A stretch of DNA of 64,000 nt from NCBI GenBank assembly GCA_009929795.1, contig RZZR01000001.1, positions 1 to 64,000 on the forward strand, written 5' to 3'. The notes under the pieces are model-generated. The model had not been told where the DNA came from. It searched no databases and saw only the letters and a program-made list of their open reading frames with translations. Made by a program: the position numbers and the translations under genes. Source of the stretch: Deltaproteobacteria bacterium (GTDB lineage Bacteria; Desulfobacterota; Desulfovibrionia; Desulfovibrionales; Desulfomicrobiaceae). This document shows, piece by piece, positions 59,711-63,756 of this stretch (position 1 is the first letter of the stretch; each line of letters begins with the position of its first letter).

Positions 59711-60748
59711 ATGACAGCCTACACGGTGTATCTGGAACAGCTTCCCGGTCTGCTCGACGCATGGTCAAGAGACTATGCCGTACACGTGCCCGTTCAGACC
59801 GAACCGGGCTTCTACGATTTCGCCCCCTGGGGGAAAGAGGTTGAAATCGCCTGGGACTACGATGTGGCATACAACTCCCCCAAACGTTTTCTTCTCCCTT
59901 CCCAGGAAGACCTTATCGCCTACGACGCCCGGTCCTGCACGGCTGAACCTGTGTTTGAGGCCCCCAAGCAGCTCCTCTTTGGAGTCCATCCCTACGACGT
60001 CAGGGCCATCGCTCAGCTTGACCAGCTCCTGGAATCCGGGGCTCCCGACCAGTCCTACCGCCGACGACGGGAACAGACCCTGATCTTCGCCCTGGACCCC
60101 ATCCGGGTGGCCGAAACTGCCTTCTGGTCGACCATGGGGGCCGGACAGGCCGACTTGGGCTTCGATCTCTACTGGACCAAGATCGGACCGGCTGCCTTCC
60201 TGGTCGTGGTCGGCTCGGCCAAGGGCGAGGAACTCCTCAAGGCCTCCGGACCAATACCCCAGGCCAGCGTGGCCGAACGCGACGCGGCCAGACGAACCGC
60301 CGAAGCCGTGCGCCTGGTGGCCGATCGCCGAGGGCTGCGTTTCCCCTGGCAGGATATCCCGGCCCTGCTCGAAAAATCATGGAACTCCCGGCTCTGGCGG
60401 GAACGCTCGGAAATGTGTCTGGCCTGCGGGTCCTGCAACGTGGTTTGTCCGACCTGCTACTGCTTCGATATCCGGGAGGAGATGGATCTGAACATGAAAA
60501 CCGGACGCCGATTCCGGACCTGGGACGCGTGCATGCTCCCCTCCTTCGCCCTCATTGCCGGCGGCCATAACTTCCGGGCCAAGGCTTTGGAGCGCTACCG
60601 GCACCGATACTATCGAAAGGGCAAGTACATTTACGACCTTGTGGGCGAGCTCGGCTGCGTGGGCTGCGGCCGCTGCGTGAGAGCCTGCACTGCGGGCATC
60701 GCCAATCCCATGGAGGTCTACAACGCCCTGTGGGAGGAATTCAAATGA
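59711..60748 (+). CDS. hydB: hydrogenase iron-sulfur subunit, beta (HydB-like)
   Basis: 345 residues. An N-terminal region of unknown fold (to about 225) is followed by two ferredoxin-type [4Fe-4S] sites: CLACGSCNVVCPTC (Cys236, 239, 242, 246) and CVGCGRCVRAC (Cys316, 319, 322, 326). It matches HydB of the four-subunit cytoplasmic sulfhydrogenases, order beta-gamma-delta-alpha. It passes electrons between the small subunit and the flavin subunit. GCAGGAG sits eight bases before ATG 59711. Confidence 0.92.
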   Translation: MTAYTVYLEQLPGLLDAWSRDYAVHVPVQTEPGFYDFAPWGKEVEIAWDYDVAYNSPKRFLLPSQEDLIAYDARSCTAEPVFEAPKQLLFGVHPYDVRAIAQLDQLLESGAPDQSYRRRREQTLIFALDPIRVAETAFWSTMGAGQADLGFDLYWTKIGPAAFLVVVGSAKGEELLKASGPIPQASVAERDAARRTAEAVRLVADRRGLRFPWQDIPALLEKSWNSRLWRERSEMCLACGSCNVVCPTCYCFDIREEMDLNMKTGRRFRTWDACMLPSFALIAGGHNFRAKALERYRHRYYRKGKYIYDLVGELGCVGCGRCVRACTAGIANPMEVYNALWEEFK

Positions 60749-61578
60749 ACCGTCGGAACTTTTCTCCCTACGTCCCGCGCCCGGCCACCCTCATCCGCAA
60801 GGAACGACTGTCCGCGCTGGTAACCCTGTTCGAGTTCGCCCCGGACAACGGACGCCCCTTGGCCCACAAGCCCGGGCAATTCATCCAGGTCTCGGTCTTC
60901 GGTGTGGGCGAAGCTCCCTTTTCCATCAGTTCCTTTCCCAACCCGGACACCCACCACTTCGAGATTGCCGTCCGCAAAATCGGGTCTGTGACCAACGCCC
61001 TGCACGTGCTAAACGAAGGCGACAAGGTCGCCATCCGCGGTCCCTACGGCTCCTTCTTTCCCATTCAGGAATTTGTGGGCAAGGACACCATTTTCGTGGC
61101 CGGAGGACTCGGATACATCCCCCTGCGCAGCCTGCTCCGCTACCAGCTCAAGCACCGCAACGAGTTCGGCCGGATCATACTCCTGGTCGGCACCCGCAAT
61201 CCGTCTGAGCGCATCTTCGTCGACAGACTGGCCGAACTTTCGGCCCGGCCCGACGTGGACGTCTATGAGACCGTTGACGTTCCCGATGAACACTGGACCG
61301 GTCACGTGGGGCTCGTCACCACCCTGCTGCCCAAGCTGACTTTCGATCCCGACAACACCTACGTGGCCATGGTCGGACCGCCGGTCATGTACAAATTCGT
61401 CATCGCCGGCTGCAAGGATTTGGGCATCCACCCCTCCCGAATCTACGTCTCCCTGGAACGAAAGATGAAATGCGGCCTGGGCAAATGCGGCCATTGTCAG
61501 ATCAACGGCCTGAACGCCTGCATTTCCGGACCGGTATTCCGCTACACCGACATCGAGTCCCTGCAGGAGGCCCTGTAG
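60745..61578 (+). CDS. hydG: hydrogenase flavin subunit, gamma (HydG-like)
   Basis: 277 residues of the ferredoxin-NADP reductase family: an FAD domain (APFSISSFP, about residue 56) and an NAD(P) domain (VAGGLGYIPLRSLLRYQ), then a C-terminal [2Fe-2S] motif CGLGKCGHC...C. It exchanges electrons with NAD(P)H. ATG overlaps the hydB stop. Not to be confused with the radical SAM HydG of FeFe hydrogenases. Confidence 0.92.
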   Translation: MNRRNFSPYVPRPATLIRKERLSALVTLFEFAPDNGRPLAHKPGQFIQVSVFGVGEAPFSISSFPNPDTHHFEIAVRKIGSVTNALHVLNEGDKVAIRGPYGSFFPIQEFVGKDTIFVAGGLGYIPLRSLLRYQLKHRNEFGRIILLVGTRNPSERIFVDRLAELSARPDVDVYETVDVPDEHWTGHVGLVTTLLPKLTFDPDNTYVAMVGPPVMYKFVIAGCKDLGIHPSRIYVSLERKMKCGLGKCGHCQINGLNACISGPVFRYTDIESLQEAL

Positions 61579-61615: not shown

Positions 61616-62362
61616 ATGGCCAGCAAACCCAGAATCGCCTTCTTCGACTTCGCCGGTTGCGAGGGCGACCAGCTTCAGGTGGCCAACCTGGAGGAACGGC
61701 TTCTCGACCTCCTTGAACATGTCGAGGTGGTCAATTTCCGGGAGGTCATGACCGAAAGGAGCGACGACTACGACATCGCCTTTGTCGAGGGCTCCATCAC
61801 CACCCCGGCCGACATAGACCGAATCAAGGGTATCCGGAAACGGGCCAAGATTCTGGTTGCCTTGGGGGCCTGCGCCACCATCGGTGGGGTGAACTGCATG
61901 AAGAATTTCATGGACGAGTCCGTGTACCGGACCCATGTCTACGGCCCCATGGCCCGGGCCTACGAAACCATCCCGGCCCGGCCCGTCTCGGCCGTCGTCC
62001 CTGTGGACGCCGAGATTCACGGCTGCCCCATCGACAAGGAGGAATTCCTGCGGGTCACCAAGGAACTTCTCCTGGGCCGGACCCCCTGGCTCCCGGACTA
62101 CCCGGTGTGCATGGAGTGCAAGGCCGCCGGCAACATCTGCCGCTACGAATTGGGCAGACCCTGCCTCGGTATCATCACCCGGGCCGGCTGCGGCGCGGTC
62201 TGCGTCACCGAGGGGGCCCATTGCTGGGGCTGCCGCGGACTGGCCCCCCACGCCAACCTCGACGCCGCCAAGTACGTCATGATCGATCGGGGCGGGTTCT
62301 CCCGTCGCCAGGTTCAGGATCTTTTGCGATTCTACAACGGCTACACCAGCGCGCCCCTTTAG
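61616..62362 (+). CDS. hydD: NiFe hydrogenase small subunit, delta (HydD-like), with Asp at a proximal-cluster position
   Basis: 248 residues. The proximal cluster motif is CEGDQ (Cys15, Asp18), where relatives such as Pyrococcus HydD have CxxC. The other ligands are Cys86 (VALGACATIGG) and Cys137 (HGCPID). The C-terminal half carries Cys165, 168, 175, 183, 192, 196, 203 and 206 for two more [4Fe-4S] clusters. It bridges the NiFe site to HydB. No signal peptide, so cytoplasmic. The Asp ligand recalls the 3Cys1Asp proximal cluster of some oxygen-insensitive hydrogenases; that link is inference. Confidence 0.93.
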   Translation: MASKPRIAFFDFAGCEGDQLQVANLEERLLDLLEHVEVVNFREVMTERSDDYDIAFVEGSITTPADIDRIKGIRKRAKILVALGACATIGGVNCMKNFMDESVYRTHVYGPMARAYETIPARPVSAVVPVDAEIHGCPIDKEEFLRVTKELLLGRTPWLPDYPVCMECKAAGNICRYELGRPCLGIITRAGCGAVCVTEGAHCWGCRGLAPHANLDAAKYVMIDRGGFSRRQVQDLLRFYNGYTSAPL

Positions 62363-62388: not shown

Positions 62389-63756
62389 ATGAGCGACCTT
62401 GAACAGACCGCCGGGACCCCCGGCCCCAAGAAAATCAACGTCCACCACCTGACTCGGGTCGAAGGCCACGGCAACATCGTGGCCGAGATCGGCACCGACG
62501 GCCAGGTCGAGGCCTGCCGATGGGAGGTGCCCGAGGCTCCGCGCTTTTTCGAGGCCATGCTTCTGGGCAAGCATTTTTCAGATGTCCATCAGATCACCTC
62601 CCGCATCTGCGGCATCTGCTCCATCGGCCATCAACTGGCCTCTCTCCAGGCCACCGAGGATGCCATGGGGATCCGGCCCTCGATCCAGACCGTGGCACTG
62701 CGCAAACTGGCCCTGCACGCCGAAAACCTCCAGAGCCATCTGCTGCACGTGGCCTATCTGGTGTTGCCAGACCTTTTTGGTGTGGGCTCGGTCATTCCTC
62801 TGGCTTCCACCCACAAGAATGAACTGAAGACACTCATCTCCCTCCACCGCATGGCCAACGAGTTCAGCCGGGTCGTGTGCGGACGGACGACCCACCCCCA
62901 GCGACTCGTGCCCGGCGGGTTCGCCAAGCTGCCCACGGTCAAGGATCTCGAAACTCTGCGCCGGGATCTCAAGGATTCCCTCTCCGGCCTTCAGACCGCC
63001 GTTGACGTGCTGGCCTCGGTGGCTGGGGCCATTCCGGCATTCACCCGGCCCACTGAATACGTGGGTCTCGTTTCTCCGGCCGAATACGCCCTGCTTCACG
63101 GCCATATCAGCACCAGTCTTGACCAGACCCGACCGGCCGGCCACTACCGGGACGTGACCAACGAATACATGGTCCGCCAGTCCACGGCCAAATGGACCAA
63201 GAACAAGATGGGCTCCCTCATGGTCGGGGCCTTGGCCCGCTTCAACCTGAACCACGCCTACCTAACGCCTCGGGCCAAGGCCGCGGCCAAGGCCTTGGGC
63301 TTGAGTGCCCCCTGTCACAATCCCTACATGATTTCCGTGGCCCAATTGGTCGAGTGCGTCCACAGCGTGGAAGATTCTCTTGCCCTCGTGGACGGTCTTG
63401 TGGCCAGGGGCATCAAGGCCGAGGCCCGCATGGACATCCGGCCCCGGGCCGGCAAGGGCGTGGGCACGGTGGAGGTTCCCCGGGGGCTTCTCATCCACGC
63501 CTACGAATACGACGACCAGGGGCGCATCGTGGACGCCGACTGCGTCATCCCCACCAACCAGAACCACGGCAACATCCAGAAGGACATGGACGCCCTCATC
63601 CCCGACCTGCGGGATTTGACCGAAGCCGAGATCGAGCTGCGCCTGTCCATGCTTGTGCGGGCCTACGATCCGTGCATCTCCTGTTCGACCCATTTCATCG
63701 ACATCCGTGGGGGTGGAGGTCGGGGGTCCATGGTTCGTTTTGTTCACCCGAACTGA
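62389..63756 (+). CDS. hydA: NiFe hydrogenase large subunit, alpha (HydA-like)
   Basis: 455 residues. The nickel site is formed by RICGICSIGH (Cys74, 77) and DPCISCSTH (Cys429, 432), both intact. Group 3 large subunits end a few residues after the His; here 20 follow (FIDIRGGGGRGS, then to PN), likely removed by a maturation peptidase if processed. ATG 62389 lies 26 bases after hydD. No peptidase gene follows. Confidence 0.95.
   Translation: MSDLEQTAGTPGPKKINVHHLTRVEGHGNIVAEIGTDGQVEACRWEVPEAPRFFEAMLLGKHFSDVHQITSRICGICSIGHQLASLQATEDAMGIRPSIQTVALRKLALHAENLQSHLLHVAYLVLPDLFGVGSVIPLASTHKNELKTLISLHRMANEFSRVVCGRTTHPQRLVPGGFAKLPTVKDLETLRRDLKDSLSGLQTAVDVLASVAGAIPAFTRPTEYVGLVSPAEYALLHGHISTSLDQTRPAGHYRDVTNEYMVRQSTAKWTKNKMGSLMVGALARFNLNHAYLTPRAKAAAKALGLSAPCHNPYMISVAQLVECVHSVEDSLALVDGLVARGIKAEARMDIRPRAGKGVGTVEVPRGLLIHAYEYDDQGRIVDADCVIPTNQNHGNIQKDMDALIPDLRDLTEAEIELRLSMLVRAYDPCISCSTHFIDIRGGGGRGSMVRFVHPN

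Follow-up and report, generated by a model that had tools for sequence, protein, structure and literature searches.

A predicted aspartate ligand to the proximal iron-sulfur cluster in a cross-domain clade of group 3b-like [NiFe]-hydrogenases

Does an aspartate that replaces a cysteine in the small subunit of a [NiFe]-hydrogenase bind the proximal cluster, and if so, what does the exchange do? The question arises from an operon in the window, by which we mean the whole 64,000-nucleotide stretch of DNA analysed here. The operon is intact, with the gene order hydB-hydG-hydD-hydA, hydB and hydG lying upstream of the small-subunit gene hydD and hydA downstream (Table 1). An earlier note on this DNA had drawn attention to the motif C15-E-G-D18 together with Cys86 and Cys137, and the translated ORF carries these residues exactly as described. 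Its contrast with Pyrococcus was also borne out: the solved SHI delta subunit reads SCYGCQ at the aligned site, whereas the N-terminal proximal motif of the studied protein is CEGD rather than the CxxC of SHI.

Table 1. Hydrogenase genes of the operon and residues discussed in the text (positions in the window).
Feature	Position	Strand	Remarks
hydB-like iron-sulfur subunit	59711..60748	+	Fer4_22
hydG-like FAD/NAD(P)-binding subunit	60730..61578	+	DHODB-type Fe-S domain; start codon uncertain, ATG at 60745 being an alternative to 60730
hydD-like [NiFe]-hydrogenase small subunit	61616..62362	+	ATG start, 248 aa; HydD/ShyD NCBIfam, PF01058, SHI delta fold match
Cys15 (TGC), first proximal-cluster ligand	61658..61660	+	invariant in 203 homologues
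Asp18 (GAC), predicted fourth proximal-cluster ligand replacing Cys	61667..61669	+	Cys or Asp only in 203 homologues
Cys86, proximal-cluster ligand	61871..61873	+	invariant in homologues
Cys137, proximal-cluster ligand	62024..62026	+	invariant in homologues
hydA-like large subunit	62389..63756	+	RICGIC and DPCISCSTH intact
Large-subunit T168-H169-P170-Q171-R172	62890..62904	+	

The gene set, including the FAD/NAD(P)-binding HydG, is that of group 3b, and HydA, in which both the L1 and L2 Cys motifs are intact, has its nearest solved structure in SHI alpha (215 bits, vs 165 for Mvh and at most 84 for Frh). By sequence, the small subunit carries the ligands of three [4Fe-4S] clusters, the proximal, the medial and the distal one; among solved structures it is closest to SHI delta (38% identity, 165 bits), and its predicted structure, of moderate confidence (mean pLDDT 68.7) and modelled with no cluster or cofactor, matches the SHI delta fold (9e1j_A, TMq 0.81). 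Pyrococcus furiosus SHI (HydBGDA, group 3b) thus resembles the locus in subunit set, in its three cluster sites and in the Ni ligands of the large subunit, and differs from it in the cysteine at position 18. Despite scores below the curated cut-offs of the SHI (NF040836; 166 vs 500 bits) and SHII (NF040831; 157 vs 460 bits) equivalogs, the operon is best described as encoding a predicted group 3b-like, cytoplasmic [NiFe]-hydrogenase, and its gene content supports the NAD(P) linkage that had been proposed for it. With a dsrA in the genome that scores over its cut-off, the host organism is very probably sulfate-reducing.

Some features of the operon vary among relatives. The studied large subunit extends ~20 residues beyond DPCISCSTH (63697-63756), a C-terminus expected to be cleaved on maturation; the large subunits at loci L028 and L030 have only four residues (CIFL) at the matching end. 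HydB and HydG are apparently fused into one ORF of ~640 aa in relatives from Bathyarchaeota and many Thermoplasmatota (L031:3079-4995, L194:2-1498 and similar loci). The hydrogenase was absent from all 21 genomes surveyed from the source's own family (G001-G021; E<=1e-20) and present in other families of the same order, a patchy distribution that points to loss or transfer.

To place Asp18 among its relatives, small subunits were extracted from named genomes, from whole genomes within the source's order and phylum, and from whole genomes in the phyla to which two archaeal relatives belong, these being an even draw of some phyla plus the best 80 matches of one scan, and 203 non-redundant sequences were aligned; Actinobacteria, Chloroflexota and methanogens lie outside this survey. 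Position 18 is Cys in 132 sequences, Asp in 71 and nothing else, so that the rarity of Asp18 implied earlier was wrong: the residue is common in its clade. Both codons are used for it (GAC in 47 sequences, GAT in 24), and each lies two bases from a Cys codon (TGY vs GAY). Cys15, Cys86, Cys137 and eight C-terminal ligand cysteines, eleven in all, are invariant in Asp and Cys types alike, and a column restricted to C or D amid invariant ligands is, in this alignment, what a metal ligand looks like. A substitute cysteine was also sought. Cys94 was the only nearby candidate and is variable in both types, being present in 36 of the 71 Asp-type and 30 of the 132 Cys-type proteins; with no conserved candidate among the 203 homologues, replacement of the ligand by another nearby cysteine was ruled out. 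Glycine directly precedes the first Cys in 70 of the 71 Asp types, as it does in the FrhG and HofK proteins discussed below, and, because some Cys types carry it too, it may be permissive only.

Asp ligation of a proximal cluster has precedents in other hydrogenases, the closest of which is FrhG of Methanothermobacter marburgensis (group 3a). As in the studied protein, Asp occupies the second ligand position with the three cysteines kept (GCTGD vs GCEGD): the PDB chain reads SGC57-T-G-D60, and alignment offsets put Asp60 opposite Asp18. This Asp ligand was first noted in PMC3591093, and clear density shows Asp60 bound to the proximal cluster (PMC3930138). The two enzymes are unlike in other respects, FrhG having F420 as acceptor and other partner subunits and showing little sequence similarity (40 bits against the studied small subunit). 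FrhG sequences were compared as PDB chains, a search of Thermoproteota genomes having returned no FrhG match. Since the chains of M. barkeri and M. thermolithotrophicus have Cys at the Asp60 position (GCTGC) where M. marburgensis has Asp, group 3a by its sequences also toggles between Cys and Asp at the homologous position.

The precedent first proposed, that of group 1h, stands in part. HofK of Ralstonia eutropha HofKG (PDB 5aa5) reads GLGCDGD, and thus has the GCxGD motif, and its Asp is reported as a proximal ligand (PMC5364354). As a comparison it is incomplete, however, because group 3a is closer and because in groups 1f and 2a, too, Asp or Asn stands in for a proximal Cys of the small subunit (PMC5364354, PMC4070099). 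HofKG belongs to a different hydrogenase group and is an aerobic, oxygen-insensitive enzyme, and 5aa5 was absent from the matches of the studied small subunit at E<=1. Groups 1f and 2a, likened here from their descriptions, are again other hydrogenase groups in which, as in our protein, a residue other than Cys occupies one of the proximal ligand sites. The Alteromonas macleodii hydrogenase stayed active when Asp was introduced at its second proximal position (C81D; PMC4070099). In the plasmid collection, HofK (L226:4963-6018; NC_005241.1 59962-61017; identical to 5aa5_A) is annotated as 'hydrogenase expression protein HypE', a misannotation.

Because the homologous Asp60 of FrhG is a proven ligand and HofK of group 1h reads GCDGD, we consider it very likely that Asp18 is a ligand of the proximal cluster. 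The 3Cys1Asp [4Fe-4S] cluster predicted in the earlier note is well supported by the strict C/D split, the invariance of the other ligands and the structure of FrhG. We found no earlier mention, structure or spectroscopy of an Asp-ligated proximal cluster in group 3b, in a literature search that was short on subscription journals and is weak evidence on this point. What is new here is the extent of the Asp trait in group 3b, the toggling between C and D, and the presence of clade-specific large-subunit residues beside the proximal-cluster His.

On a tree built with the trait column (position 18) excluded, the Asp types form essentially one clade, which spans Desulfovibrionales, a second Desulfobacterota family (L098-L102), Bathyarchaeota, Thermoplasmatota and Bipolaricaulota, as well as one Aerophobetes and one Phycisphaerae bin. 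Nested within it, beside the Asp-bearing L029, are three Desulfobacterales-related proteins (L028, L030 and L036) that have Cys. With joint small- and large-subunit data, a clade of all main-clade Asp rows was rejected (AU p 3e-8) and a clade of the Asp rows together with these three was accepted (p 0.53), a topology that implies reversion to Cys within the Asp clade. Two Thermoproteota proteins (L182 and L187), placed near Pyrococcus SHI on the tree (L187 scores 215 bits against SHI delta), carry GCGGD and represent, by their placement, a second and separate origin of Asp in SHI-like enzymes. The minimum number of Cys/Asp changes on the tree is 3 to 4. Ahead of their counterpart of the ligand Cys86, these two proteins also read GDCA, not G(A/S)CA, so that an additional Asp adjoins the cluster site.

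The large subunit also bears a mark of the Asp clade. Of its 455 positions, twelve are diagnostic for the main clade of Asp types, and four of these (160, 168, 171 and 172) lie within 17 residues around GRTTH169PQR, a clustering with a hypergeometric p of 6e-4 for a segment picked after seeing the data; T168, Q171 and R172 are the diagnostic residues that flank His169. In other hydrogenases a conserved histidine, His229 of Hyd-5 (PMC3940037) and His235 of Desulfovibrio vulgaris (PMC10017518), adjoins the proximal cluster, the latter falling at FGAKNPH in the PDB chain sequence. As the motif is shared and the region aligns to SHI alpha, we infer that HydA His169 is this histidine. The residues around it hint at a remodelled second sphere. 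Strict co-variation with Asp was not borne out, since the Cys revertants L028, L030 and L036 keep the same large-subunit residues; the diagnostic positions would then reflect one event, and may be simple clade markers that record ancestry.

In an enzyme of the HydBGDA type, electrons would be exchanged between H2 and NAD(P)H. Their route would start at the NiFe site of HydA, enter HydD at its proximal cluster, continue over the medial and distal clusters and those of HydB, and lead by way of the HydG-bound FAD to the nucleotide. Within the Asp-type clade, the fourth Fe of the proximal [4Fe-4S] cluster would be bound by the carboxylate of Asp18, not by a Cys thiolate. More speculatively, this swap may tune the potential or proton coupling of the cluster and so shift the bias between H2 uptake and evolution, as opposed to protecting against O2. 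The direction of any effect on potential is not predictable, as reported Cys-to-Asp shifts are unreliable on sign. Extended across groups, with Asp in 1h, toggling in 3a and, in 3b, two gains of Asp and one return to Cys, the exchange could be a recurrent dial that sets proximal potential or proton coupling, and hence bias, with the second sphere adjusted to it (Gly14, as well as T168, Q171 and R172 of the large subunit around His169); we offer this tentatively and regard it as rather unlikely.

A serious possibility, though one we place somewhat short of an even chance, is that Asp18 does ligate the cluster but is near-equivalent to Cys, so that toggling is largely neutral and fixed by lineage history. 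This opposes tuning only and leaves ligation untouched. It would fit the return of Cys in L028, L030 and L036, the separate appearance of Asp in L182 and L187, the variation of FrhG between methanogen species and the frequent tolerance of engineered Asp ligands. Against it, a switch takes no more than two base changes, yet few are seen across a very broad tree, and Asp has been kept across the distance between bacteria and archaea, which suggests some constraint.

Ligation itself could fail if Asp18 merely formed hydrogen bonds nearby, leaving a three-Cys [3Fe-4S] cluster or a [4Fe-4S] cluster with water or hydroxide on the fourth Fe. Three-Cys sites are able to hold [3Fe-4S] clusters, and an artificial Cys-to-Asp change in PsaC can yield one (PMC4070099). 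We nevertheless judge a non-ligating Asp18 improbable: position 18 is never N, S, E, G or A in the 203 sequences, the Asp of FrhG that is homologous to it is a ligand with clear density, and changes between Asp and Cys occur in both directions, as would be expected if both residues ligate.

Reading Asp ligation as an adaptation to oxygen, as is suspected for group 1h, is less probable still. The GCxGD motif is indeed common to HofK, and Asp has been named in papers as a possible clue to oxygen tolerance. However, most members of the clade belong to anaerobic lineages (sulfate reducers, Bathyarchaeota, Bipolaricaulota), with lifestyle mostly inferred from lineage, the methanogen M. marburgensis has the same Asp ligand in Frh, and Asp ligation leaves one Fe labile in air in Pyrococcus ferredoxin (PMC4070099). 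Together with the dsrA of the source genome, these observations leave the link to oxygen response that had been suggested for this protein unsupported. A sequencing error or decayed gene, for which the fragmented assembly (407 contigs) might speak, has a negligible probability and is ruled out by an intact ORF and operon, by the same Asp, encoded by GAC or GAT, in 70 other sequences (71 of the 203 homologues in all) and by the two-base difference between Cys and Asp codons.

With Asp18 as the very likely fourth ligand, natural Asp ligation of the proximal cluster would now take in a large clade of NAD(P)-linked hydrogenases from both bacteria and archaea, and oxygen tolerance is no longer the default reading of such a ligand. 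The Asp-bearing L029 and its Cys-bearing neighbours L028, L030 and L036 are natural near-twins that would allow a direct measurement of how the ligand affects potential, bias and oxygen response.
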